A DNA stretch of 64,000 bases from Niastella vici (lineage in GTDB: Bacteria; Bacteroidota; Bacteroidia; Chitinophagales; Chitinophagaceae): the NCBI RefSeq assembly GCF_002077945.1, contig NZ_LVYD01000058.1:186001-250000 (forward strand), read 5' to 3'. This document shows, piece by piece, positions 41,571 to 54,178 of this stretch. The notes beneath the pieces are model-generated. The model worked only from the letters and a program-made list of their open reading frames with translations, did no database searches and was not told where the DNA came from. Position numbers and translations under genes: made by a program. Every line of letters begins with the position of its first letter. Position 1 is the stretch's first letter.

Positions 41571-41984
41571 ATGATTATGTACCTGTTACAAGTCCAAGTT
41601 TCCACCGTTGCCCATGATTCCGATAGTTCCTACTGGTATCTCCCTATTGCTATTCAATTAATTTTCGCAGTACTCTTTGTGGCGGTTATGATGGGTGTTA
41701 CCCACTGGCTGGGGCCCAAACGCAATACCGCCGATAAGCTGGAAACATTTACCAGTGGTATTAAAAGCCACGGTGATGCCCGGCAGCCTATGGCCATCAA
41801 GTACTTCCTGGTAGCGATCTTATTCGTATTATTCGATGTGGAGGTGATCTTTTTCTACCCCTACGCAGTAAATTTTAAAGAACTGGGTTGGAGCGGCTTT
41901 GGAGCTGTATTAATGTTCATTGCATTTTTTCTGTGCGGCTTTATATACATTATCAAGAAAGGAGCGTTAAAGTGGGAAGATTAA
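41571..41984 (+). CDS. nuoA: NADH-quinone oxidoreductase subunit A
   Basis: The protein has 137 residues with three membrane helices (about 20-42, 80-98 and 105-125). The loop KLETFTSGIKSHGDARQPMAIKYFLVAILFVLFDVEVIFFYP holds the conserved NuoA motif around Asp-Val-Glu in FDVEVIF. The family usually has Cys at the TSGI position and here it is Ser, which is known in some Bacteroidota. NuoA is a membrane-arm subunit beside the quinone cavity. It starts the complex I operon. A second in-frame ATG lies at 41577. Confidence 0.96.
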   Translation: MIMYLLQVQVSTVAHDSDSSYWYLPIAIQLIFAVLFVAVMMGVTHWLGPKRNTADKLETFTSGIKSHGDARQPMAIKYFLVAILFVLFDVEVIFFYPYAVNFKELGWSGFGAVLMFIAFFLCGFIYIIKKGALKWED

Positions 41985-42125
41985 TATGATAATGTGATAA
42001 TTAGCTAATGTGCTAATGCTTTTTAATACCGGGTGCAGAAACATATGATTATGCCGGTTGTTATAGTAATATAGCATGTTATTCATTATCAAATTATCAA
42101 ATTAACGCTTTATCAAATTAAAATT
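41985..42125. repeat. nuoA-nuoB intergenic direct and inverted repeats
   Basis: The left part (41985-42020) repeats GATAATGT/GCTAATGT words. The right part (42088-42122) repeats TATCAAATTA words about every 9 bp. The two parts are complementary, so the transcript can fold back on itself. No gene is seen, although nuoA and nuoB are normally close together. Confidence 0.6.
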
Positions 42126-42704
42126 ATGGCACGTCCTGTTCAATATAATATCTACGGTCAAACCGATGTGAAACTGGTTAAGGAAGGTCCTGAAGGTTAC
42201 ATGGGCGAAGGTTTTTTTGGAACCACCCTCGATAAAGTGGTTGGGCTGGCCCGGAAAAACTCCATATGGCCACTGCCTTTTGCCACTTCCTGTTGCGGAA
42301 TTGAATTTATGGCCACCATGGCATCGCATTACGATCTGGCCCGGTTCGGATCTGAGCGTGTGGGCTTTTCGCCCCGCCAATGCGACCTGTTGATGGTAAT
42401 GGGTACCATTGCCAAAAAAATGGCGCCCGTTGTAAAACAGGTATATTTGCAGATGGCAGAACCCCGTTGGGTGCTGGCCATGGGTGCCTGCGCCAGTAGC
42501 GGCGGCATTTTTGATACCTACAGCGTTTTACAGGGTATTGACCAAATCATTCCTGTAGATGTATATGTACCTGGTTGTCCTCCCCGGCCTGAAGCTGTTA
42601 TCGATGGCATCATCAAAATTCAGGAGTTGGTAGGAAACGAAAGCTTGCGCAGAAGGAACAGCGATAAGTATAAACAATTAATGGAGAGCTACGGTATTCA
42701 ATAA
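42126..42704 (+). CDS. nuoB: NADH-quinone oxidoreductase subunit B
   Basis: The protein has 192 residues. The N2 4Fe-4S cluster ligands are visible: the Cys pair in TSCCGIEFMA, a third Cys in MGACASSGG, and the fourth in VPGCPPRPEA. NuoB carries the terminal cluster N2, which reduces the quinone. The protein is complete. It lies 141 bp behind nuoA across a repeat-bearing spacer and 91 bp ahead of nuoC. Confidence 0.98.
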   Translation: MARPVQYNIYGQTDVKLVKEGPEGYMGEGFFGTTLDKVVGLARKNSIWPLPFATSCCGIEFMATMASHYDLARFGSERVGFSPRQCDLLMVMGTIAKKMAPVVKQVYLQMAEPRWVLAMGACASSGGIFDTYSVLQGIDQIIPVDVYVPGCPPRPEAVIDGIIKIQELVGNESLRRRNSDKYKQLMESYGIQ

Positions 42705-42795
42705 CCCCCGGTTTTCGCCTGTTGGCGAAGCAGGGCAGAAGCCGTAATTGTCATTTTAACTATAAAAAACAAATTCCTCTTACAGGGGATGGGGT

Positions 42796-43299
42796 ATGGC
42801 TTTAACGAACGATACTATCAAACAGCGGTTAACTGAAAAGTTTGGCGAACAGGTTCAGCAGTTTCAGGAACCTTATGGCATGCTCACTTTTGAAGCACCA
42901 AAAGAGCTTAACCTGAAAGTGCTTCAGTTCTTATTTGATGAGGATGACCTGGCTTTCCGTTTTATGACCGATCTGCAGGCCGTTCACTATCCTGATAATA
43001 AAGGACGTGAGCTGGCGGTTGTATATCACCTGCACAGCCTCACTGCCAACGTTCGCATCCGGTTCAAAGTGTTCACCGACATTCAAACCCCGGATGTATT
43101 CAGCGCCACTGCTTTATTTTCAGCGGCCAACTGGATGGAAAGAGAGACCTATGATTTTTATGGAATTAACTTTATAGGTCATCCGAACCTGAAGCGGATC
43201 CTGAATGTGGATGAAATGGATTATTTCCCCATGCGCAAGGAGTATCCGCTCGAAGAACAAACCCGTGTTGATAAGGATGATGAAATGTTTGGACGCTAA
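42796..43299 (+). CDS. nuoC: NADH-quinone oxidoreductase subunit C (30-kDa subunit)
   Basis: The protein has 167 residues, one Complex1_30kDa domain. It includes FRFMTDLQAVHYPDNKGREL, the helix ALFSAANWMERETYDFYGINFIGHPNLKRIL and the FPMRKEYPLEEQ end, which contain the family signature ERE(T/V)YDxxGI. NuoC is separate from NuoD here, unlike the fused NuoCD of E. coli. It forms part of the hydrophilic arm beside NuoD. Its stop lies 11 bp before nuoD. Confidence 0.97.
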   Translation: MALTNDTIKQRLTEKFGEQVQQFQEPYGMLTFEAPKELNLKVLQFLFDEDDLAFRFMTDLQAVHYPDNKGRELAVVYHLHSLTANVRIRFKVFTDIQTPDVFSATALFSAANWMERETYDFYGINFIGHPNLKRILNVDEMDYFPMRKEYPLEEQTRVDKDDEMFGR

Positions 43300-43310
43300 T
43301 TTTCGAATTT

Positions 43311-44534
43311 ATGAGTGATCATCATATAAAATTACCCGAAGGCTCCATTGAGAAGCAGACCACAACCCTGAATTTAGGGCCTACGCACCCGGCTACCCAT
43401 GGTGTATTTCAGAATATCCTGGAACTGGATGGTGAACGCATCATCTCGGCCGAACAAACCATAGGTTACATTCACCGTGCGTTTGAAAAAATAGCCGAGC
43501 ACAGACCCCTGTACCAGATTACCCCTTTAACCGACCGGTTGAATTATTGCTCAGCCCCCATCAATAACATGGGCTGGCATATCACCTGCGAGAAATTGCT
43601 GGGTGTAAAAATTCCCAAGCGGGTCGACTATCTGCGGGTGATTGTGATGGAACTGGCGCGCATAGCCGATCACCTCATTTGCAACTCCATTGTAGGGGTT
43701 GATACCGGCGCATTCACCGGGTTCCTGTATGTAATGCAATACCGCGAGCTGATCTACGAAATATATGAAGAAATATGTGGCTCCCGTCTTACTACCAACA
43801 TTGGGCGTATTGGCGGTTTTGAAAGGAATTTCACACCCGTAGCATTTGAGAAGCTCGATAAATTCCTGCGGGAATACCCCAAAGTGCTGAAGGAGTTCGA
43901 GAACCTGTTCACCCGTAACCGCATCTTCATGGAACGTACCATTGGCTGCGGACCCATCAGTGCCGAAAGAGCGCTGAATTACGGTTTCACGGGGCCGAAC
44001 CTGCGGGCAGCCGGAGTAGATTACGACGTACGGGTACATACGCCGTACAGCAGTTACGAAGAATTTGATTTTGAAATACCGGTGGGCAGCACCGGCGACT
44101 GTTACGATCGATACCTGGTGCGCAACCAGGAAATGTGGCAATCGCTGCGCATTATTGAACAGGCTTTACGTAAGGTGCGGGAGTTTAAAGGAAAAGAAGC
44201 TGAGATCTTCCATGCCGATGTACCTGAGTATTACCTGCCCGAGAAAAAGGATGTATATACGAAGATGGAAGCGCTGATCTGGCACTTCAAGATCATCATG
44301 GGTGAAATTGATATGCCGGCAGGGGAAGTATACCAGTCGGTAGAAGGCGCCAATGGTGAGTTAGGCTTTTACCTGATCTCAGATGGCGGCCGTACACCGT
44401 ACCGGTTGCACTTCCGCCGTCCATGCTTTGTTTATTACCAGGCATACGAAGAAATATCGAAAGGCGCCATGTTAAGTGATGCCATCATTACCCTGAGTAG
44501 CCTGAATTTGATCGCAGGCGAAATGGACGCGTAA
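43311..44534 (+). CDS. nuoD: NADH-quinone oxidoreductase subunit D (49-kDa subunit)
   Basis: The protein has 407 residues. The start THPATHGVFQNILELDGERI is the typical 49-kDa motif with the quinone-site His region. HIADHLICNS-type sequence (RIADHLICNS), RIGGFERNF and EHDG-like LNRL segments follow, and RLHFRRPCFVYYQ ends the domain. NuoD houses the quinone-binding pocket with NuoB. It is part of the nuo operon, complete and intact. Confidence 0.98.
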   Translation: MSDHHIKLPEGSIEKQTTTLNLGPTHPATHGVFQNILELDGERIISAEQTIGYIHRAFEKIAEHRPLYQITPLTDRLNYCSAPINNMGWHITCEKLLGVKIPKRVDYLRVIVMELARIADHLICNSIVGVDTGAFTGFLYVMQYRELIYEIYEEICGSRLTTNIGRIGGFERNFTPVAFEKLDKFLREYPKVLKEFENLFTRNRIFMERTIGCGPISAERALNYGFTGPNLRAAGVDYDVRVHTPYSSYEEFDFEIPVGSTGDCYDRYLVRNQEMWQSLRIIEQALRKVREFKGKEAEIFHADVPEYYLPEKKDVYTKMEALIWHFKIIMGEIDMPAGEVYQSVEGANGELGFYLISDGGRTPYRLHFRRPCFVYYQAYEEISKGAMLSDAIITLSSLNLIAGEMDA

Positions 44535-44577
44535 GCAACGTGATAAAGAATTAGTAAACATAAATATCAATAGTAAA

Positions 44578-45078
44578 GTGGCTCAATTTTCTGCAGAGAA
44601 ATTAAATAAGGTGAACGAGATCATTGCACGCTATCCAACAGGAAAGCAAAAAAGTGCCCTGATTCCGGTATTGCATATTGCCCAGGAAGAATTTGGTGGC
44701 TGGTTGAGTGCAGAGACCATGGATTATGTGGCTTCCTTACTCAAAATAGAGCCTATTGAAGTGTATGAAGTGGCCACTTTTTATTCGATGTACAACCTGA
44801 AGCCGGTTGGTAAATATGTTTTTGAAGTGTGCCAAACCGGGCCCTGCATGTTGAATGGCAGCGATGAGATCATTGAGTATATAAAGAACAAGCTGGGTAT
44901 TAAAGTAGGCGAAACAACCGCCGATGGTTTGTTCACCCTGAAAACAGTGGAGTGCCTGGGCGCCTGCGGTTATGCCCCCATGATGCAATTGGGCAAACAT
45001 TACCGCGAGCACCTGACGAAAGAGAAGATCGACGCCATCATTACAGAGTGTGAGCGCAACGCCGTGACGAATAATTAA
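44578..45078 (+). CDS. nuoE: NADH-quinone oxidoreductase subunit E (24-kDa, 2Fe-2S)
   Basis: The protein has 166 residues. It starts at a GTG (44578-44580). No in-frame ATG lies near the family's normal start, and the N-terminus MAQFSAEKLNKVNEIIARYP is typical. The thioredoxin-like domain has the 2Fe-2S ligands in CQTGPCMLNG (Cys pair) and ECLGACGYAPMMQ (Cys pair). NuoE supplies cluster N1a next to NuoF. It lies 43 bp behind nuoD and 36 bp ahead of nuoF. Confidence 0.95.
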   Translation: MAQFSAEKLNKVNEIIARYPTGKQKSALIPVLHIAQEEFGGWLSAETMDYVASLLKIEPIEVYEVATFYSMYNLKPVGKYVFEVCQTGPCMLNGSDEIIEYIKNKLGIKVGETTADGLFTLKTVECLGACGYAPMMQLGKHYREHLTKEKIDAIITECERNAVTNN

Positions 45079-45114
45079 TAAACCTGACAGCATAATTGCT
45101 GAAAGAAATATAGA

Positions 45115-46479
45115 ATGGGAAGAAAATTATTATTAGAAAAAGCGCATGTTCCGGGGATCCGTAGTTACGATGTATACCGTCGTGAAGGCGGTTATCGCAG
45201 CGTGGAAAAAGCGCTCAAGACCATGAGTCCCGACCAGGTAACCGAAGAAGTTAAGAAGAGTGGATTGCGGGGCCGTGGCGGTGCTGGTTTTCCTGCCGGT
45301 ATGAAGTGGAGCTTTCTGGCCAAACCCGAAGGCGTTCCCCGTTACCTGGTATGCAATGCCGACGAATCGGAGCCAGGAACCTTTAAGGACCGTTACCTGA
45401 TGGAGTTCATTCCGCACCTGCTGGTGGAAGGGTTGATCGTAGCGTCCTATGCGTTAGGTTCGAACAGAACATTTATTTATATCCGCGGCGAATACGCGTG
45501 GATCGTTGATATACTGGAACAGGCCATTGCCGAAGCCAAAAACAATGGCTGGCTGGGTAAGAACATCCTGGGCAGTGGCTTCGATTGTGAAATTTATGTA
45601 CAACGCGGCGCCGGCGCATACATCTGCGGTGAAGAAACAGCCCTTATTGAATCGCTGGAAGGTAAACGCGGTAACCCCAGGATCAAACCTCCGTTCCCGG
45701 CGGTAAAAGGTTTGTGGGATTGCCCCACCGTGGTGAACAATGTGGAAACCATTGCTGCGGTAGTGCCCATCCTCAATATTACCGGTGAGGAATACGCCAA
45801 GATAGGCGTAGGTAAATCAACCGGTACCAAACTCATTTCAGCTTGCGGTAATATCAATAAACCCGGCGTGTTTGAAATTGACATGACCATTTCGGTAGAA
45901 GAATTTATATACAGCGAAGAATATTGCGGTGGTATTGCCAATGGCAAACGCCTGAAGGCCTGCATACCCGGTGGTTCTTCGGTTCCCATTTTGCCCGCCA
46001 ACCTGCTGTTGAAAACAGCCAAAGGCGAAGCGCGTATGATGAACTACGAAAGCCTGAGCGATGGCGGTTTTGCCACCGGTACCATGATGGGTAGTGGCGG
46101 GTTTATTGTGCTCGATGAAGACCAGTGCGTGGTGCGCCATACGTTAACACTGGCGCGTTTTTACCGCCATGAAAGCTGCGGACAATGCTCACCCTGCCGC
46201 GAAGGCACCGGCTGGATGGAGAAGATCCTGAAGAATATTGAATACGGAAAAGGCAAGAAGAGCGATATTGATCTGTTGTGGGATATTCAACGTAAGATAG
46301 AAGGTAATACGATATGTCCGTTAGGTGATGCCGCTGCCTGGCCGGTAGCTGCAGCCATCCGTCATTTCAGAGATGAATTTGAGTGGCATGTGCAGTATCC
46401 GAATGCCGCCCAGAACAGGAATTATGGACTGGCGCATTATGCTGATCCGTTGCCCGTAGCAGCAGCTCCGAAGGCATAA
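45115..46479 (+). CDS. nuoF: NADH-quinone oxidoreductase subunit F (51-kDa, FMN and NADH binding)
   Basis: The protein has 454 residues. It has the NADH/FMN site (GLRGRGGAGFPAGMKW), FMN-site residues in RYLVCNADESEPGTFKDR, and EYACGEETALIESLEG-like sequence (ICGEETALIESLEGKRGNPR). The N3 4Fe-4S cluster motif is ESCGQCSPCREG with the final Cys in the CPLGDAAAWP region. NuoF takes electrons from NADH. It is followed not by nuoG directly but by a 487-bp insertion containing a DUF559 gene. Confidence 0.98.
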   Translation: MGRKLLLEKAHVPGIRSYDVYRREGGYRSVEKALKTMSPDQVTEEVKKSGLRGRGGAGFPAGMKWSFLAKPEGVPRYLVCNADESEPGTFKDRYLMEFIPHLLVEGLIVASYALGSNRTFIYIRGEYAWIVDILEQAIAEAKNNGWLGKNILGSGFDCEIYVQRGAGAYICGEETALIESLEGKRGNPRIKPPFPAVKGLWDCPTVVNNVETIAAVVPILNITGEEYAKIGVGKSTGTKLISACGNINKPGVFEIDMTISVEEFIYSEEYCGGIANGKRLKACIPGGSSVPILPANLLLKTAKGEARMMNYESLSDGGFATGTMMGSGGFIVLDEDQCVVRHTLTLARFYRHESCGQCSPCREGTGWMEKILKNIEYGKGKKSDIDLLWDIQRKIEGNTICPLGDAAAWPVAAAIRHFRDEFEWHVQYPNAAQNRNYGLAHYADPLPVAAAPKA

Positions 46480-46481
46480 TA

Positions 46482-46526
46482 CCCCCTGTCCCCCTAAAGG
46501 GGGAATACCCCCGGCCCCTAAAGGGG
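46482..46526. repeat. CCCC-TAAA-GGGG palindromes, left bracket of the DUF559 gene
   Basis: Two short hairpins lie in tandem: CCCCCTAAAGGGGG (46490-46503) and CCCCTAAAGGGG (46515-46526). Each is preceded by a further C-block (ACCCCCTGT and ACCCCCGG). This resembles, in reverse orientation, the palindrome at 46939-46957 and the one at 57820-57841, which read CCCC-TTTA-GGGG-TTT-GGGG. The pair brackets the DUF559 gene inside nuo. Confidence 0.8.
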
Positions 46527-46549
46527 AGGAGGAAATTTAAAAAAGGGAT

Positions 46550-46921
46550 ATGAAGAAGAAAATGTTCTACGGTGCTTCATGGTTGCTTTTTGAAAGAGCA
46601 AAGAAGTTTCGTGAGAACATGACACAAGCGGAATTAGTTCTTTGGGAATATTTGAGACAACGTCCTTTAGGATTTAAATTCAGACGGCAACATCCTTTAG
46701 GAATTTATATAGTGGACTTTTTTTGCCACAAATTGAAACTGGTTATTGAAGTAGATGGAAGTGTGCATGATCTGAAAGAAATAAAAGCGGCGGACCTGGA
46801 AAGGCAAAGACTGCTTGAAATGGAAGGATTGAAAGTTATTCGTTTTACAAACGAAGAGATACTTAAGACGAAAGAAGTTGTAGTAGAGAAAATAAATTTG
46901 TTAATCAACGAGCTTTCTTAA
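46550..46921 (+). CDS. DUF559 (Vsr-like/PD-(D/E)XK) endonuclease-domain protein inserted in nuo
   Basis: The protein has 123 residues, all one DUF559 domain: the N-terminal helix MTQAELVLWEYLRQRPLG, then FKFRRQHPLGIYIVDFFC with Asp56, and LVIEVDGSVHD with Glu67, Asp69 and His73, and Arg85 in DLERQR. These residues match the Vsr-type PD-(D/E)XK core, so a nuclease is likely but not shown. It is visibly richer in A and T than the flanking nuo genes. It sits in the nuo operon between nuoF and nuoG, where no such gene belongs, and is bracketed by palindromes. It is same-strand, so readthrough from nuo is possible. Confidence 0.9.
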   Translation: MKKKMFYGASWLLFERAKKFRENMTQAELVLWEYLRQRPLGFKFRRQHPLGIYIVDFFCHKLKLVIEVDGSVHDLKEIKAADLERQRLLEMEGLKVIRFTNEEILKTKEVVVEKINLLINELS

Positions 46922-46938
46922 CGGAAAGTTCCAAAAAG

Positions 46939-46957
46939 CCCCTTTAGGGGTTTGGGG
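46939..46957. repeat. CCCC-TTTA-GGGG palindrome, right bracket of the DUF559 gene
   Basis: CCCCTTTAGGGG (46939-46950) is followed by TTTGGGG (46951-46957), so two overlapping hairpins are possible. The element ends 9 bp before the nuoG ATG. It is the reverse complement in style of the left-bracket copies. Confidence 0.8.
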
Positions 46958-46966
46958 TTTGGTTTT

Positions 46967-48055
46967 ATGGCTGATCAACCAAAGTTATTTAAAGTAACCA
47001 TCGATAACATCACCGTTGAGGTGGAAGCGGGAACCAGTATCCTGAATGCGGCCCGCATGATCGGGGGTGATGTGGCACCGCCCGCCATGTGCTATTACAG
47101 CAAACTGAAAGGCAGCGGCGGTAAATGCCGTACCTGCCTGGTAGAAGTATCGGCAGGCTCAACGGCCGACCCGCGTCCGATGCCTAAACTGGTGGCCAGC
47201 TGCCGTACCAACGTAATGGATGGCATGGTGGTGAAAAACATTACCAGTGAAAGAGTACAGGATGCAAGAAAGGGTGTGGTGGAATTGTTGCTCATCAACC
47301 ACCCGCTCGATTGCCCAATTTGCGACCAGGCCGGTGAATGCCACCTGCAGGACCTTAGCTATGAACATGGCGCAGAAGGCACCCGCTACGAATTCCCCCG
47401 CCGTCAATTCGAAAAACATAACCTCGGCCCCTATATACAACTGCACATGACGCGTTGCATCCTGTGTTACCGTTGTGTATTTACGGCCGACCAGCTCACC
47501 AATAAACGCGTGCACGGTGTATTAGACCGTGGCGACCACGCCGAGATCGCTACCTACATTGAGAAAGCGCTCGATAATGATTTTATCGGCAACGTGATCG
47601 ATGTATGTCCTGTTGGTGCATTGACCGACAAAACCTTCCGGTTCAAAAACCGCGTATGGTTCCTGAAACCGGTAGATGCGCATCGTAATTGCCCCAAATG
47701 CTCAGGTAAGGTTACCTTGTGGCACCGGGGTGATGAAGTGTTTCGCGTTACCGGCCGTAAAGACCAGTGGGGCGAAGTGCAGGACTGGATCTGTAACGAC
47801 TGCCGTTTCGAGAAAAAGAAAACGAGCGACTGGGTTATTGATGGGCCAACCAAGGTAAGCCGTCATTCGGTGATAAGCGCCAACCATTATGTTGATACGG
47901 TGAAACCACACGAAGCCTTACCCGAAGTAATGGGTGGCCGTCAGCCCCGCCTGCTGATGAATATTCATTCGGTGAGTGAAGTGAATAAACCCACGATAGA
48001 CCTGTCGAAAATACAGGGACCGGCGCATTCGGGAGATTTTAAGAAAGGGGAGTAG
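46967..48055 (+). CDS. nuoG: NADH-quinone oxidoreductase subunit G, short form
   Basis: From ATG 46967 the protein has 362 residues. It holds the 2Fe-2S domain (Cys42 and Cys54/Cys57 in KCRTC), the 4Fe-4S His-Cys domain (HPLDCPICDQAGECHLQD) and a further cluster region (RCILCYRCVF, CPVGAL, then CPKCSG and ICNDC). The molybdopterin-oxidoreductase-like C-terminal half found in E. coli NuoG (about 900 residues) is absent, which is the usual Bacteroidota form. NuoG passes electrons from NuoF towards NuoI. Its native upstream junction with nuoF has been replaced by the DUF559 insertion. Confidence 0.95.
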   Translation: MADQPKLFKVTIDNITVEVEAGTSILNAARMIGGDVAPPAMCYYSKLKGSGGKCRTCLVEVSAGSTADPRPMPKLVASCRTNVMDGMVVKNITSERVQDARKGVVELLLINHPLDCPICDQAGECHLQDLSYEHGAEGTRYEFPRRQFEKHNLGPYIQLHMTRCILCYRCVFTADQLTNKRVHGVLDRGDHAEIATYIEKALDNDFIGNVIDVCPVGALTDKTFRFKNRVWFLKPVDAHRNCPKCSGKVTLWHRGDEVFRVTGRKDQWGEVQDWICNDCRFEKKKTSDWVIDGPTKVSRHSVISANHYVDTVKPHEALPEVMGGRQPRLLMNIHSVSEVNKPTIDLSKIQGPAHSGDFKKGE

Positions 48056-48130
48056 GGGACAGAACCCTGAAGTGCGCGACGCAACAGAAGACGAGAAGAG
48101 AATAAACAGTTGACTACATAAAAAATTAAA

Positions 48131-49198
48131 ATGCATTCTGCTTTATTAGCTATTGACCTGTTTTTTGTAATTGAGAAACTGGTGCTCATTGTAGGCATCG
48201 TCACCATGTCATTGGTAATTGCCATGTATGAAACCTATGCCGAACGTAAAGTAGCTGCTTTTATCCAGGATCGCCGTGGGCCGAACCGGGCGGGCCCGTT
48301 CGGGTTGTTGCAACCGCTGGCCGACGGGTTAAAACTGTTCATGAAAGAGGAGATCATTCCTAATACATCGAACCGTTTCCTGTTCATTCTGGGTCCCTGT
48401 TTAGCGATGCTGGCCGCCATGATGACATCGGCGGTAATTCCCTGGGGCGGCAAGCTCAATGTTATGGGCCGCGAAGTGAACCTGCAGATCGCTGATATCA
48501 ATATTGGAATTTTATACGTGTTTGGCGTTGTGAGCATGGGGGTATATGGTATTATGATCGGGGGCTGGGCCTCAAACAACAAATTTTCGCTGATGGCCGC
48601 CCTGCGTGGCGCCTCGCAGGTGATCAGTTATGAGTTGCCCATGGGCCTTTCGCTGATCGCCTTGCTGATGCTCACCGGTTCTTTAAAAATGAGTGAGATC
48701 GTTGCTCAGCAAATAGATAGTTGGTGGAATGTTGTTTACCAACCGCTGGGCTTCTTTATATTCCTGGTATGTGCGTTTGCTGAATGTAACCGTACACCGT
48801 TCGACCTGCCCGAGGCAGAAAACGAATTGAACTTTGGATACCACCAGGAGTACTCTTCGATGAAACTGGGTTTTTACCTGTTTGCTGAATACATCAATAT
48901 GTTCATCAGCAGCGTAATAATGGCAACCCTTTTCTTTGGTGGCTATGATATTCCATTTTTTAACGATGCTGCCCATGCCGACTGGGGCAACTGGCTCGTG
49001 GCTTTACAGGCAGTGTCATTACTTGGAAAAGTGGCCTTATTTATATTCCTGTTCATGTGGGTGCGCTGGACCATCCCGCGCTTCCGCTACGACCAGCTGA
49101 TGAACCTGGGCTGGAAAGGGTTGATACCCCTTAGCCTTATCAATATGATAGTGACCGCCGCCATAGTATTGCTGAAGGCTAACCACTGGAAGTTTTAG
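48131..49198 (+). CDS. nuoH: NADH-quinone oxidoreductase subunit H
   Basis: The protein has 355 residues with about eight membrane helices. The family motifs YAERKVAAFIQDRRGPNRAGPFGLLQPLADGLKLF and AECNRTPFDLPEAENEL, the conserved quinone-chamber loop, are present, together with ELNFGYHQEYSSMKLGFYLFAEY. NuoH joins the hydrophilic and membrane arms. It lies 75 bp behind nuoG. Confidence 0.98.
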   Translation: MHSALLAIDLFFVIEKLVLIVGIVTMSLVIAMYETYAERKVAAFIQDRRGPNRAGPFGLLQPLADGLKLFMKEEIIPNTSNRFLFILGPCLAMLAAMMTSAVIPWGGKLNVMGREVNLQIADINIGILYVFGVVSMGVYGIMIGGWASNNKFSLMAALRGASQVISYELPMGLSLIALLMLTGSLKMSEIVAQQIDSWWNVVYQPLGFFIFLVCAFAECNRTPFDLPEAENELNFGYHQEYSSMKLGFYLFAEYINMFISSVIMATLFFGGYDIPFFNDAAHADWGNWLVALQAVSLLGKVALFIFLFMWVRWTIPRFRYDQLMNLGWKGLIPLSLINMIVTAAIVLLKANHWKF

Positions 49199-49304
49199 TA
49201 CCGCGGAACGCGGGAGGAATTAATTGGCGTATTGAAAGGAGAAAAATACTTTTGCGGTTTTAGTAGTGAAGGTTGTTTAAGCAGATCTAAGTTAACTTTT
49301 TATA

Positions 49305-49862
49305 ATGCAAGCATTAACAAACAGAGCCAAAGCGGTAGACCGTAAACCCATGACACTTGTGGAGAAACTCTACGTGTGGAATATTTTCAAGGGTATGATG
49401 ATCACCTTACGGCATCTATTTAAAAAGAAAGCTACCATTAGCTATCCCGAGCAAAAACGTCCGTTTAGCCCGGTGTTCCGTGGTTTGCATATCCTGAACC
49501 GCGATGAAGAAGGACGCGAACGTTGTACCGCCTGCGGGTTGTGCGCACTGGCCTGCCCTGCTGAAGCCATTACCATGGAAGCAGCCGAGCGTTTACCGGG
49601 TGAAGAGAACAAGTATCGCGAAGAGAAGTATGCCGCCAAATACGAGATCAATATGCTGCGGTGCATCTTCTGCGGATTGTGCGAAGAGGCCTGCCCCAAA
49701 GACGCCGTTTATTTAAGTGAAACCTTTGCGCCTTCGAACTATCAGCGTAAAGGGTTTATATACGGCAAGGATGATCTTTTGATCCCGAACCCTAAAGACA
49801 ACCCCGGCGAATACTGGAAGGCTGTGGGTAACCGGAAAGCAAACAAAGAACAAGGCAATTAA
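49305..49862 (+). CDS. nuoI: NADH-quinone oxidoreductase subunit I (two 4Fe-4S clusters)
   Basis: The protein has 185 residues. The two ferredoxin motifs CTACGLCALACP and CIFCGLCEEACP bind clusters N6a and N6b, near residues 72-83 and 116-127. The N-terminal hydrophobic helix (about 25-42) fixes it to the membrane side. NuoI links NuoG and NuoB. It begins 107 bp behind nuoH. Confidence 0.97.
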   Translation: MQALTNRAKAVDRKPMTLVEKLYVWNIFKGMMITLRHLFKKKATISYPEQKRPFSPVFRGLHILNRDEEGRERCTACGLCALACPAEAITMEAAERLPGEENKYREEKYAAKYEINMLRCIFCGLCEEACPKDAVYLSETFAPSNYQRKGFIYGKDDLLIPNPKDNPGEYWKAVGNRKANKEQGN

Positions 49863-49880
49863 CAGAACCAACAAGCTGCA

Positions 49881-50378
49881 ATGGATATTACACAAGTATT
49901 ATTTTATGCTTTAAGTGCAATGGCACTGGGCAGCGCCATAATGGTGGTGATCAGTCGAAACCCGGTACATAGTGTATTGTGGCTCATCATTACATTCTTT
50001 GCCATTTCAGGACATTATATTTTAATGAATGCCCAGTTCCTGGGTATTGTGAACCTGATCGTATATGCAGGCGCCATCATGGTATTGTTCCTGTTCGTGA
50101 TCATGTTGATGAACCTGAATGCCGAAACCGAACCGCAAAAGAATAAATGGCTCAAGCTGGCTGGTGTGGTGGCAGGCGGCTGTCTGCTGCTGGTACTGGT
50201 AGCTGCATTGAAACAGGCCGAAGTAAAAGGAAAGATAGCTATGCTGGGAACCGGTGATATTGGTTTGATCCGCAACCTCGGTAAAGCCCTGTTCACCGAT
50301 TACGTAGTGCCTTTCGAAATAAGCAGCGTGCTGTTCCTGAGCGCGATGGTGGGCGCCGTTGTGATTGGTAAGAAGTAA
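49881..50378 (+). CDS. nuoJ: NADH-quinone oxidoreductase subunit J
   Basis: The protein has 165 residues with five membrane helices. The start ITQVLFYALSAMALGSAIMVVISRNPVHSVLWLIITFFAISG and GIVNLIVYAGAIMVLFLFVIMLMNLN are typical NuoJ segments, including the GAIMVLFLFV proton-path helix. It lies 18 bp behind nuoI and 17 bp ahead of nuoK. Confidence 0.97.
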   Translation: MDITQVLFYALSAMALGSAIMVVISRNPVHSVLWLIITFFAISGHYILMNAQFLGIVNLIVYAGAIMVLFLFVIMLMNLNAETEPQKNKWLKLAGVVAGGCLLLVLVAALKQAEVKGKIAMLGTGDIGLIRNLGKALFTDYVVPFEISSVLFLSAMVGAVVIGKK

Positions 50379-50395
50379 TTTATTAAAAGAGATTT

Positions 50396-50725
50396 ATGTT
50401 AATTGAAAGATATATCTACCTGGCTATTGCCCTTTTTTGTATCGGCATTGTAGGAGTGCTGGCCCGCCGTAATGCCATCATCATCTTCATGTGTATTGAG
50501 CTAATGCTGAATGCGGTGAACCTGTTGCTGGTTGCGTTCTCAAAAATGCATCTTGCGGCAGCATTACCCGGTAAAGCGAATGCCGGTATCGACGGACAGC
50601 TTTTCGTATTCTTCATAATGGTGGTGGCGGCAGCCGAAGTAAGCGTGGGCCTGGCCATTATTGTGATGATGTACCGCAATACGCATTCGGTGGATGTAAA
50701 TTTTTTAAACAGGTTGAAGCATTAA
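50396..50725 (+). CDS. nuoK: NADH-quinone oxidoreductase subunit K
   Basis: The protein has 109 residues with three membrane helices. The second helix holds the conserved Glu in [18 protein letters not shown] and the third has [17 protein letters not shown], with the second conserved Glu. NuoK is part of the antiporter-like proton path. It overlaps no neighbour and lies 7 bp ahead of nuoL. Confidence 0.97.
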
Positions 50726-50732
50726 AAACTGT

Positions 50733-52664
50733 ATGAACAACGTGTTACAATTAGTTTGGTTGGTTCCCTTTTTTCCACTGGTTGGGTTTCTGATCAATGG
50801 GTTGCTCAGAAAACAACTTCCCAAATCGCTGATCAGTATTATTGGCAGCGGTATGGTATTGGCCTCGTTCATTGTGAGTGTGCTGCTTTTCATGGAAGTA
50901 AAGAACGGGAACACACAAGTGGTAAACCTGTTTGATTTTATAAACTCCGGTACTTTATCAATTCCCTTTGCCTTTCAGATAGACCAGCTTTCGTCTCTCT
51001 TTCTGCTGATCATCACCGGCGTGGGTTTTCTGATACATTTGTACTCAGCCGCCTATATGCACGAAGAACGGAGTGAGCATTTTGGCCGTTACTTCTGTTA
51101 CCTCAACCTCTTCGTGTTCTCCATGTTGCTGCTTGTACTGGGCGCCAACTATGTGATCATGTTCATTGGTTGGGAAGGTGTAGGTTTGTGTTCTTACCTC
51201 CTTATCGGTTACTGGTTCAAGAATACCGAATACAACAATGCAGCCAAGAAGGCCTTTATCATGAACCGTATTGGTGATCTTGGTTTTTTGATCGCCATCT
51301 TCTGGCTCATTGCCAAGCTGGGCACCGTAACATATACTACACCCGAAGGCAGCGGTGTGTTCGACCTGTACAATAAATTAACAAGAACTGATATTATCGG
51401 TATTACCTTACTGTTGTTTGTAGGCGCTACCGGTAAAAGTGCACAGATACCTTTATATACCTGGCTGCCCGATGCCATGGCGGGTCCTACCCCGGTATCG
51501 GCGCTGATCCATGCCGCTACGATGGTTACGGCTGGTATTTACATGATCGCGCGCAGCAACATTTTATATACCATGGCGCCCGAAACGCAAAGCGTGGTGG
51601 CGGCTATTGGTTTGGCTACTGCCCTGTTTGCGGCCACCATCGCCATCAAACAAAACGATATTAAAAAAGTACTGGCTTACAGTACCGTGAGCCAGCTGGG
51701 TTATATGTTCCTGGGTTTGGGCGTGGGCGCATATACCGGGGCCGTGTTCCATGTAATGACGCATGCCTTCTTCAAGGCCCTGTTGTTCCTGGGAGCAGGT
51801 TCTGTAATACATGCCATGCACCATGAGCAGGACATTCGCAAAATGGGTGGTTTGGCAAAGCACCTGAAAATAACCCATGCAACTTTCCTGATCGGTTGTA
51901 TTGCCATTGCCGGTATACCACCCTTCAGTGGTTTCTTCTCCAAAGATGAAATATTAGCAGCCGCATACGAAAAAGACCATCTGTATTATTACCTGGGTGT
52001 GGCCGGTGCTATGATAACCGCCTTCTATATGTTCCGGTTATATTTTACTACCTTCTGGGGTTCTTTCCGCGGAACCGAAGAGCAAAAGCATCACCTGCAT
52101 GAAAGCCCTGCCGCCATGACCATTCCATTGATCGTGCTGGCGATATTGAGCATGATAGGTGGTTTTGTTGGCCTGCCCGAAGTATTCAATATGGGTGAGC
52201 ACAAACTGGAACATTTTCTGGCCCCCATATTTGAGGCTTCCACTAAAGCAAAAGAGTTGGTACACCCCGAAGTGGCGACCCTCGATCATGGTACCGAAAT
52301 CATGCTGATGAGCATTTCGGTTGGGGTGGCTGTAATAGCTATTCTGATTGCCTGGGCCCGGTACATCAAAAAGCCTGAACTCAATGAACCTGCAGGTTTT
52401 GGAAAAGTGCTGGCCGACAAATGGTACATCGATGAATTATACAACTTCATTATAGTTAAACCATTGAACGGGCTGGCCAAATTCATGAACAGCTTTGTAG
52501 AGAAAAGATTTATCGACTGGCTGGTGAACGGGGTAGGCCGCACAGTGAATTATACCAGCCGCCAGGTTCGCCTGGTACAAAGCGGACTGGTGGGCAATTA
52601 TGTGCTGTTGATGGTGCTGGGCATGCTGGCCTTGTTCGTTGTGAAGTTCTTTTTGAAAAAGTAA
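50733..52664 (+). CDS. nuoL: NADH-quinone oxidoreductase subunit L
   Basis: The protein has 643 residues with about sixteen membrane helices. The family core WEGVGLCSYLLIGYWF, TGKSAQIPLYTWLPDAMAGPTPVSALIHAATMVTAG and AYSTVSQLGYMFL carry the proton-pumping Lys/Glu/His. The C-terminal lateral helix HL spans about residues 540-590. It pumps protons. It lies 7 bp behind nuoK and 47 bp ahead of nuoM. Confidence 0.98.
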   Translation: MNNVLQLVWLVPFFPLVGFLINGLLRKQLPKSLISIIGSGMVLASFIVSVLLFMEVKNGNTQVVNLFDFINSGTLSIPFAFQIDQLSSLFLLIITGVGFLIHLYSAAYMHEERSEHFGRYFCYLNLFVFSMLLLVLGANYVIMFIGWEGVGLCSYLLIGYWFKNTEYNNAAKKAFIMNRIGDLGFLIAIFWLIAKLGTVTYTTPEGSGVFDLYNKLTRTDIIGITLLLFVGATGKSAQIPLYTWLPDAMAGPTPVSALIHAATMVTAGIYMIARSNILYTMAPETQSVVAAIGLATALFAATIAIKQNDIKKVLAYSTVSQLGYMFLGLGVGAYTGAVFHVMTHAFFKALLFLGAGSVIHAMHHEQDIRKMGGLAKHLKITHATFLIGCIAIAGIPPFSGFFSKDEILAAAYEKDHLYYYLGVAGAMITAFYMFRLYFTTFWGSFRGTEEQKHHLHESPAAMTIPLIVLAILSMIGGFVGLPEVFNMGEHKLEHFLAPIFEASTKAKELVHPEVATLDHGTEIMLMSISVGVAVIAILIAWARYIKKPELNEPAGFGKVLADKWYIDELYNFIIVKPLNGLAKFMNSFVEKRFIDWLVNGVGRTVNYTSRQVRLVQSGLVGNYVLLMVLGMLALFVVKFFLKK

Positions 52665-52711
52665 GATGGTGAGTTTCACGTTTCACGATTCTTGAATATT
52701 TATAGCTTATT

Positions 52712-54178
52712 ATGATACCTGTATTGCTGATAGTTATTCCGTTGGTGAGTGGTTTGCTGGCTTTCCTGATAAAACAGGACAAGAGTGTGAGGGTATGGTC
52801 ATTGTTGACATCCATTATAACAATGGTTGTTGCTGTAGCGGGCATCGCTTTTATACATAAAGCGTCTTACTTTCAATGTGATGTACCCTGGTTGCCAAGT
52901 TTAGGCAGCAGCTTTTCGCTGACGATGGATGGCATGAGCAAAATGCTGTGTTTGCTCACAGGTATTGCTTACCCTGGTATCTTTATTGCCACCTGGAATT
53001 CAACCTACAGAAATCCGCATCAGTTCTTTGCCCTGATGCTGTTGATGCAAACCGGTTTAATGGGTGTGTTTGTGGCTTCTGACGCCCTGTTGTTCTACTT
53101 CTTCTGGGAACTGGCGCTTATTCCTGCTTACTTCCTGTGCTCTACCTGGGGTGGCGAAAGAAGAGTGGCTGTTACCTTCAAGTTTTTCATCTACACGTTT
53201 ATAGGCTCGCTGTTGATGCTGGTGGGTATCATCTGGGTTTATTTTCATACCCCCGATCATTCATTTGCCATGAGTTCTTTCTACAAACTGAACCTGCCCG
53301 GCGCTCAACAGGGCTGGTTGTTCTGGATGTTCTTCCTGGCCTTTGCCATTAAAATACCATTGTTCCCATTCCACACCTGGCAGCCCGATACGTATGAGCA
53401 ATCGCCCACGGCGGTTACCATGGTATTGAGCGGCATCATGGTTAAAATGGGGGTGTTCGGCATTCTGCGCTGGCTGGCGCCGGTAGTACCGGTTGGCTTA
53501 TGGGGTTATGGTGATCCTGCTGCATCCATGTGTGTGATCGGAATGATCTATGCATCCATAGTGGCCATGCAACAGGACGACCTTAAACGCCTGATCGCCT
53601 ATTCATCAATTGCCCACATGGGTTTAATGGGCCTGGCCATCTTTGTTACCTCTTCAGTGGGTATACAGGGTGTAATGGTGCAAATGTTCAACCACGGTAT
53701 CAATATTATCGGTCTCTGGATCATTGTTGAACTGATAGAGCGTCAGTTTGGAACGCGTAAGATGAGTGAGCTGGGCGGACTGGCACAAAAAGCGCCCACC
53801 CTGGCCATTATGCTGGTGATAGTATCGCTGGCCAATGTGGCCCTGCCGCTGACCAATGCTTTTATTGGTGAGTTCATGATGTTCAACGGGGTGTTTGGCT
53901 CCAAGTCATCGAACTACCATTATATCTTTATGGTAGTGGGCGGTATCAGCATTATTTTATCGGCTGTATATACCTTAAATATGCTGCAAAAGGTATTGTA
54001 TGGCAATACCAGCACATTGACCGCCAATGCCAAGGATATTCGTGGCAATGAAAAGCTTGTACTGGTTGTATTGCTGATAGGCATTGTAGTAATGGGTGTA
54101 TATCCCAAGCCAATGATCGAAGCAACAAGGCATGCGGTAGATGCCATTTACTCAAAAATGTTTGTCAAATTACCATAA
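52712..54178 (+). CDS. nuoM: NADH-quinone oxidoreductase subunit M
   Basis: The protein has 488 residues with about fourteen membrane helices. The antiporter-like motifs LLFYFFWELALIPAYFL (conserved Glu), FLAFAIKIPLFPFHTWQPDTYEQSPTAVTMVLSGIMVKMG and LIAYSSIAHMGLM are present. NuoM is the second proton-pump subunit. The gene has the expected order behind nuoL. Confidence 0.98.
   Translation: MIPVLLIVIPLVSGLLAFLIKQDKSVRVWSLLTSIITMVVAVAGIAFIHKASYFQCDVPWLPSLGSSFSLTMDGMSKMLCLLTGIAYPGIFIATWNSTYRNPHQFFALMLLMQTGLMGVFVASDALLFYFFWELALIPAYFLCSTWGGERRVAVTFKFFIYTFIGSLLMLVGIIWVYFHTPDHSFAMSSFYKLNLPGAQQGWLFWMFFLAFAIKIPLFPFHTWQPDTYEQSPTAVTMVLSGIMVKMGVFGILRWLAPVVPVGLWGYGDPAASMCVIGMIYASIVAMQQDDLKRLIAYSSIAHMGLMGLAIFVTSSVGIQGVMVQMFNHGINIIGLWIIVELIERQFGTRKMSELGGLAQKAPTLAIMLVIVSLANVALPLTNAFIGEFMMFNGVFGSKSSNYHYIFMVVGGISIILSAVYTLNMLQKVLYGNTSTLTANAKDIRGNEKLVLVVLLIGIVVMGVYPKPMIEATRHAVDAIYSKMFVKLP

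Follow-up and report, generated by a model that had tools for sequence, protein, structure and literature searches.

The window, the 64,000-nt stretch of Niastella vici DNA analyzed here, holds a nuo operon whose frames from nuoA to nuoM (41571-54178) are contiguous apart from a single small gene between nuoF and nuoG. The frames are named from what we take to be the features of each protein family; nuoF and nuoG alone were also compared with relatives. The intervening gene encodes a 123-residue protein that matches the DUF559 profile (PF04480) far above the gathering cut-off of 20.6 bits, ends at a stop codon of its own without fusion to NuoG, and is the sole gene inside the element described below (Table 1). 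Its GC content is 0.355, against 0.508 for nuoF and 0.520 for nuoG, and a GC content as low occurs in 1.3% of the 372-nt segments of the window. Two hairpins with C-tags lie to the left of the gene, and one hairpin with a G-tag lies to the right in the opposite orientation. No terminator-like site was found in 46400-47100, so intrinsic terminators at the element were rejected, and a search of 46300-47100 for matches down to E 1 returned no known Rfam RNA. An earlier note on this DNA had described an AT-rich DUF559 gene as a foreign insert in an otherwise unbroken nuo operon, with two hairpins on its left and one opposed hairpin on its right; the description holds in each of these parts.

Table 1. 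Features of the nuoF-nuoG locus, in positions of the window
Feature	Position	Strand	Remarks
nuoF (host gene upstream)	45115..46479	+	Stop TAA 46477-46479, immediately before the element
Whole element (left hairpin units, DUF559 gene, right hairpin unit)	46480..46957	+	Absent from 45 of 47 spanned family nuoF-nuoG junctions; limits drawn at the tags rather than at an exact empty allele
Left hairpin unit 1	46482..46503	+	C-tag CCCCC 46482-46486; hairpin CCCCCTAAAGGGGG 46490-46503
Left hairpin unit 2	46508..46526	+	C-tag CCCCC 46508-46512; hairpin CCCCTAAAGGGG 46515-46526; orientation as unit 1
DUF559 gene, 123 aa, predicted Vsr-like / EDxHD-type nuclease	46550..46921	+	Pfam PF04480, 118.8 bits
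Right hairpin unit	46939..46957	-	Hairpin CCCCTTTAGGGG 46939-46950; G-tag GGGG 46954-46957; tagged unit of the left side, inverted
nuoG (host gene downstream)	46967..48055	+	ATG at 46967

The 10.06-Mb genome contains only one DUF559 match. The CCCCTNNAGGGG hairpin occurs in it 71 times, against once for the reversed control sequence, and the hairpins at the element are therefore not a product of chance. Forty-one units of this genome share the consensus CCCCNNcCCCCTAAAGGGG, that is, CCCC-NN-c-CCCCTAAAGGGG, and the same consensus is found in the left ends (43) and, inverted, in the right ends (49) of DUF559 elements of many genomes. Most of the sampled dispersed hairpins in this genome (30 of 38) lie outside any open frame of 150 codons.

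Matches to nuoF are present in 144 of the 147 genomes of the host family, and 47 of the 50 nuoF-nuoG junctions examined could be spanned. DUF559 with its hairpins is found at two of them, in the window genome and in a congener (Longitalea luteola, G071; loci L119 and L209), whose copy has a single left hairpin unit and a frame-broken DUF559 gene. None of the 45 junctions without DUF559 contains a C-rich hairpin. The junction is also a hotspot for other small genes: a motif script identified PDDEXK_3 nuclease-like genes at 10 of the 47 junctions and 23S rRNA-intervening-sequence proteins at 6 (e.g., L155, L148, L156, L280), and one of each was confirmed by Pfam. Exact inverted repeats of 8-19 nt bound all nine of these other inserts that were tested, and in seven of the nine they exceed the longest repeat of 200 shuffles.

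A protein search detects DUF559 in 67 of the 147 family genomes. The family set used here comprises 98 unique DUF559 domains of at least 100 bits, taken best matches first, with weaker and partial ones left out. Perfect GC-rich hairpins (arm of at least 6 bp, within 200 nt on each side) flank both sides of 53 of 97 domains, compared with 9 of 1940 control pairs drawn from the same loci; this is a rough figure, because the strict test misses 5-bp arms, such as that of the window's own right hairpin, and may score a chance palindrome instead, an error that the controls share. With looser C-rich patterns, hairpins are found on the left of 70 of the 98 domains, on the right of 76, on both sides of 60, and on neither side of 12. 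Among the 42 elements with type-A hairpins on both sides, the hairpins are inverted (+/-) in 35, arranged otherwise in 4, and unclear in 3, and both type-A ends carry the same tag-plus-hairpin consensus as the dispersed repeats.

Similar arrangements are found outside the family. In a scan of 84,980 species genomes, the best 80 of at least 558 relatives were kept; of these, 79 loci were used, and hairpins lie on both sides in 27 of the 79, compared with 13 of 1580 control pairs. Two-sided hairpins among these best 80 extend to Anaerolineales (L247), Myxococcales (L264), Erythrobacter (L269), Patescibacteria (L257), Ignavibacteria (L261), and, with one of the two hairpins short, Anaerolineaceae (L250). 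The B-type hairpin, CTCTCC-GGAGAG, is dispersed in 107 copies in the myxococcal genome, 82 in the patescibacterial genome, and 45 in the ignavibacterial genome (controls 0), in 32 copies in Anaerolineales (control 3), and in 2 in Anaerolineaceae (control 0).

The type of hairpin follows the type of nuclease. Hairpin distance and DUF559 protein distance are correlated among 88 of the 98 family elements (Mantel r 0.372; maximum of 500 permutations 0.073). Hairpins of near nucleases from different genomes are 0.16 apart (69 pairs), whereas those of far nucleases are 0.39 apart within one genome (26 pairs) and 0.35-0.37 apart in different genomes. The hairpin type of the element also goes with the type dispersed in the same genome (14 genomes with A-type elements only vs 20 with B-type only; Mann-Whitney p 7e-5 on the ratio), where the dispersed counts include a few hairpins of the elements themselves and only the fetched DUF559 genes were typed per genome. 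The exceptions are 7 of the 20 B-only genomes, in which A exceeds B, and 2 of the 14 A-only genomes, in which B exceeds A. In a further 21 genomes the fetched elements show neither type, and some of these are rich in A hairpins (86 in G042, 87 in G074, 64 in G112). Two Pedobacter loci with a CCCCTCTCC hairpin beside DUF559 (L238 and L256) are exceptions as well, their genomes holding 21 and 24 A hairpins against 3 and 3 of type B.

The number of dispersed hairpins does not track the gene within genera. DUF559 is present in 18 of the 19 genomes with at least 30 A hairpins. Counting against a causal link, the protein search finds no DUF559 in 9 of the 46 genomes with at least 10 hairpins of type A or B; an HMM search of those nine gave no match in six (G039, G045, G047, G121, G127, G135) and one weak match each in G065, G078, and G085. 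Hairpin counts are near the control level in two of the nine (14 vs 21 in G065, 12 vs 10 in G127). Conversely, 30 of the 67 DUF559-positive genomes have fewer than 10 hairpins of either type. Thirteen genera contribute one DUF559-positive and one DUF559-negative genome each; the positive genome has more hairpins in 5 of them, fewer in 5, and the same number in 3. Because this within-genus comparison is even, the family-wide correlation between hairpin number and DUF559 was dropped as proof. A REPIN with a conserved core was also rejected, since only 3 of 28 comparisons of inner sequences (seven close pairs plus the element) beat the best of 20 shuffles.

Filled and empty alleles of one site can be compared between hisA and hisF in the genus of Pedobacter sp. 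Leaf216. There hisF is matched in 97 of 99 genomes, and the comparison covers the 30 loci that match best. Eleven of these 30 are filled and 19 are empty, and none of the 19 empty junctions contains CCCCT..AGGGG. In 10 of the 11 filled alleles the element starts directly after the hisA stop (TAA|CCCCCC), and in all 11 the G-rich end reaches the second (leucine) codon of hisF, exactly as GGGGGG|CTT or CTA in five. The hisF ATG of the empty alleles is thus lost from the filled ones, because the G-rich end runs into the second codon. A single DUF559-HisF frame of 400 to 431 codons is open in 8 of the 11 filled alleles; judging from these frames, HisF seems to be made as a nuclease fusion where the frame is open (e.g., L322, L325, L329, L336, L346). 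Three copies at this site have frame-breaking lengths (395 nt in L337, 394 nt in L345, 391 nt in L351). No empty allele close enough to show a target-site duplication was found here or at nuoF-nuoG. Inverted repeats of other kinds are visible by eye in empty alleles: L342, for example, has CATTGCGAGGCACGAAGCAATC with a near complement, and a different pair stands in L324 and L333. Repeats thus accumulate at this junction as well.

On the tree of hisA plus hisF, the filled alleles are scattered among the empty ones, with 9 changes against 9.1 after shuffling, and at least 5 changes are forced by starred branches. In 7 of 55 pairs the insert is more similar between the two genomes than either flanking gene (e.g., 94.6% vs 88.2 and 85.2). 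The median dS of the insert is 0.625, compared with 1.212 for hisF (15 pairs of 6 genomes, with L341, of 396 nt, left out for length alone and L348 as divergent), and the dN/dS of the insert is 0.112. In an uncontrolled comparison of 22 of the 55 pairs, hisF is more similar over its first 120 nt than from nt 240 onward in 18, for which constraint on that end is a possible cause. Such a combination of gain, selection for function, and decay is typical of homing genes. Given its patchy, horizontal spread at a single site, the unit as a whole is likely to be mobile.

Many elements stand within protein-coding frames rather than between genes. In the family set, 56 of 97 domains lie within stop-to-stop open frames of more than 300 aa. 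The hosts named by NCBIfam are leucyl-tRNA synthetase (LeuRS), MetH, IcmF, AroC, CinA, adenine deaminase, ArgB, HisA, and ThrB in the family and HisF in Pedobacter. Pfam adds class I tRNA synthetases (of the Val, Met, and, as we presume, Ile kinds), GcpE, a nucleotidyl transferase, and an Lhr-like helicase. The DUF559 domain is N-terminal in ArgB, HisF, HisA, and ThrB. In-frame hairpins are translated as linkers such as NPSPQVEKG and PSPLGEGRGE (P-S-P-x-G-E-G-like). Neither an intein nor a Hint family was detected in 17 host ORFs (ten scanned with NCBIfam to E 1e-10, seven with Pfam to E 0.001), and we infer that the insert remains in the host protein, unspliced. In a locus of Chloroflexi bacterium AL-N1 (L267:3000-4034), DUF559 lies between stretches that look intein-like by eye; Pfam gave DUF559 and MTES_1575 alone.

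LeuRS has two insertion sites. At site 1, DUF559 is present in 13 sequences, a short linker in 26, and a longer linker in 3; the corresponding numbers at site 2 are 5, 28, and 11 (short-linker counts not de-duplicated at either site). Seven of the 11 long linkers at site 2 contain a hairpin without the gene, six of these seven being C-rich, whereas short linkers contain a hairpin in only 1 of 26 cases at site 1 and 1 of 28 at site 2. These lone hairpins may be remnants of elements, and they also fit hairpins as targets of insertion. Two LeuRS genes (L068 and L076) each carry two DUF559 insertions, at different sites and of different DUF559 lineages.

On a tree of 174 domains, which leaves out four of the 80 collection loci because their genomes belong to the family set too, insertion sites cluster (33 changes vs a shuffled mean of 78.1), yet site switches occur. 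Three sites (ArgB, IcmF, and the N-terminal site of MetH) each form one starred branch. The elements of LeuRS and AroC are interleaved on this tree, which has few columns and many open forks.

A profile of eight DUF559 domains matches two structures in the PDB, 3hrl (7.6e-30) and 3r3p (E 7.9e-6), the latter named as a mobile intron protein and taken by us to be I-Bth0305I. In the aligned domains, E28 is conserved in 171 of 171, D56, E67, and H73 in 174 of 174, D82 in 173 of 174, and D69 in 172 of 174; these six are presumably the residues of the EDxHD motif. In 3r3p an N is aligned to D69 and no H is aligned to H73. By homology, that is, by the 3r3p match and the conserved acidic and histidine residues, the DUF559 gene would belong to the EDxHD family of homing endonucleases, to which a DUF559 gene has also been assigned in the literature (PMC9403480). 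In Caulobacter, the DUF559 / Vsr-like PD-(D/E)XK protein VsrA is described as tied to a cytosine methyltransferase, and the SOS response of a methyltransferase mutant is reported to depend on VsrA, which fits DNA cleavage in cells; mismatch repair is put forward as its function (PMC12907096). A label of anti-phage defense was rejected for the DUF559 gene, since its only PADLOC matches (E 1.8e-5 and 8.7e-5) are to segments of larger proteins.

Gene and hairpins together probably form one selfish mobile element, similar to a homing endonuclease gene and provided with REP-like hairpin ends. On comparative grounds, this reading is favored by the linkage of gene and hairpins, the inverted ends, the subfamily-specific hairpins, the alleles that lack the element, in-frame insertion, patchiness, a dS below that of the host gene, and purifying selection. 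The earlier note had read the layout as resembling a gene mobilized with palindromic ends, comparable to REP-associated elements but with a Vsr-like nuclease in place of a Y1 transposase, and had considered both whether DUF559 genes elsewhere have the same hairpins and whether the gene is a stable resident at nuoF-nuoG. The two-sided hairpins of the family support its reading; DUF559 genes elsewhere are mostly flanked, the window genome and its congener alone among the 47 spanned junctions carry the element at nuoF-nuoG, and the gene is DUF559, with no such hairpins within 300 nt at any of 34 Y1 loci (see below).

Cutting, hairpin recognition, target choice, copying by repair, and movement are what we infer for the nuclease and its unit. 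An element of about 480 nt, consisting of a C-tagged hairpin, the DUF559 nuclease gene, and an inverted C-tagged hairpin, would move as one, driven by the nuclease in the manner of a homing endonuclease that has neither intron nor intein. An allele that lacks the element would be cut by the nuclease, and repair of the break would copy in the hairpin-bounded unit, mostly at the same site of another strain and sometimes at a new site. The element could survive in coding DNA by occupying sites between operon genes (nuoF-nuoG, hisA-hisF) or by lying in frame within enzymes, in which case the hairpins would be translated too, as P-S-P-x-G-E-G-like linkers. At hisF it would take the place of the start codon, and intact copies would yield a nuclease-HisF fusion. 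The nuclease probably recognizes its own hairpin type and would hence also spread gene-less hairpins, as has been proposed of RAYT nucleases for REPs.

In the chief rival explanation, the hairpins are independent REP-like landing sites into which a DUF559 homing nuclease inserts, leaving half a hairpin or a copy on each side. This explanation is compatible with the gene-less C-rich hairpins at LeuRS site 2, a site occupied by DUF559 in other genomes, with the left units, two in tandem in the window and one in the congener, and with the hairpins of genomes without DUF559. Landing sites of this kind are nevertheless unlikely, given that the DUF559-free junctions of both nuoF-nuoG and hisA-hisF are devoid of the hairpin and that hairpin type tracks nuclease subfamily across genomes. 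Another proposal would make the hairpins part of a REP / TnpA-REP system (Y1, RAYT), with DUF559 trapped between two REPs as a passenger. The family is rich in Y1 genes, which occur in 107 of 147 genomes, and a Bacteroidetes subclass of TnpA-REP, 2.6, is described as having atypical flanking structures (PMC6006769). Yet an A- or B-type hairpin lies within 300 nt at none of 34 Y1 loci, a result on which RAYT/Y1 was rejected as owner of the hairpins (at L053 and L352 they are farther off), and Y1 is no more frequent among genomes with at least 20 A hairpins (21 of 26 vs 86 of 121, p 0.47), 5 of the 26 having no Y1 match; the passenger reading is accordingly very improbable. As a separate observation, some Y1 genes of the family (L051, L052, L056, L353, L359, L371, and others) have different hairpins of their own, e.g., GCGTTCCTACGGAACGC in L353.

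The hairpins might alternatively be selected mainly as RNA devices at 3' ends, stabilizing mRNAs or terminating transcription, with DUF559 as horizontally moved cargo that settles beside them. Fifteen of the 38 sampled dispersed hairpins lie no more than 25 nt after an ORF stop, on the C-tag side (random expectation 3.2%), which leaves room for a secondary role at mRNA 3' ends, and the inner sequences of six close +/- pairs are mostly unrelated. As a main explanation it is hardly probable: the region of the element lacks a terminator-like site, hairpins also stand inside coding frames, where a 3'-end role is impossible, and subfamily-specific hairpins are left unexplained. The least probable of the readings is that DUF559 is a resident housekeeping protein, such as a Vsr-like mismatch-repair nuclease, rather than a mobile one. 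The tie of Caulobacter VsrA, a DUF559 protein, to a cytosine methyltransferase (PMC12907096) and the purifying selection at the hisF site speak for a resident; the presence of DUF559 in less than half of the family genomes, its scattering on the host tree, and the broken frames of the congener copy and of three hisF-site copies speak against it.

If gene and hairpins form a mobile element, a wider claim can be advanced tentatively, with rather more doubt than confidence: DUF559 genes may be a widespread class of mobile element, in which a Vsr-like homing nuclease lies within its own tagged hairpins, homes as a unit into essential genes by unspliced in-frame insertion or start-codon takeover, and seeds gene-less C-tagged hairpins. 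The class would then supply the missing nuclease behind a large group of extragenic palindromes that are not of the Y1/RAYT kind. Examples come from Bacteroidota, Chloroflexota, Myxococcota, Patescibacteria, Ignavibacteria, and Alphaproteobacteria. Y1 nucleases account for REPs only where the repeats occur together with a Y1 gene, and a second, unrelated nuclease family with hairpins of its own in several phyla would, if real, explain many orphan extragenic palindromes. It would also give a function to a family still called DUF559, reveal a mobile element able to persist without splicing within enzymes like leucyl-tRNA synthetase, and offer a small system for testing whether a single-domain Vsr-like nuclease cuts and copies hairpin-bounded DNA. 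In the open-access literature (without bioRxiv preprints and with few subscription journals), no paper was found that connects DUF559 with palindromic repeats or reports its insertion in frame. What appears to be new is the combination, its parts being known: EDxHD nucleases, REP-like repeats, and in-frame REPs in tnpA-REP genes.

Among known systems, the EDxHD homing endonucleases, I-Bth0305I included, resemble the DUF559 element in sequence, in their patchy presence at one site, in the invasion of conserved enzyme genes, and in the decay of some copies. I-Bth0305I is a long multi-domain enzyme that dimerizes on a target of nearly 60 bp (PMC3943268), whereas the DUF559 element has a single domain of about 120 aa and hairpin ends, with no intron or intein identified. 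The Vsr mismatch endonuclease and Caulobacter VsrA share with it the DUF559 / Vsr-like PD-(D/E)XK kind of nuclease; unlike the element, VsrA as presented in the available part of its description is without hairpins or mobility (PMC12907096). Inteins with a homing endonuclease domain likewise place an in-frame nuclease inside essential enzymes, but at the thresholds applied no intein or Hint family was detected in the 17 host ORFs of DUF559. Rickettsia palindromic elements are palindromic repeats inserted in frame in protein genes; these are not known to carry a nuclease gene, whereas the DUF559 element has one.

A further parallel is the REPtron. RAYT nucleases are thought to spread gene-less REPs. 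REPtrons and DUF559 elements have in common one nuclease gene within tagged inverted hairpins, many gene-less copies, and a hairpin family for each nuclease subfamily, the dispersed extragenic hairpins (71 copies in the window genome) being specific to nuclease type with 9 exceptions in 34 genomes. They differ in the nuclease, which is DUF559 here and not a Y1 HUH enzyme, and in the foot, which has the consensus CCCC here and GT[AG]G in REPtrons. In-frame insertions of REPs are described inside the tnpA-REP genes of one subclass (PMC6006769). According to the same account, REPtrons do not appear to move as whole units (PMC6006769), whereas the DUF559 element seems to do so.
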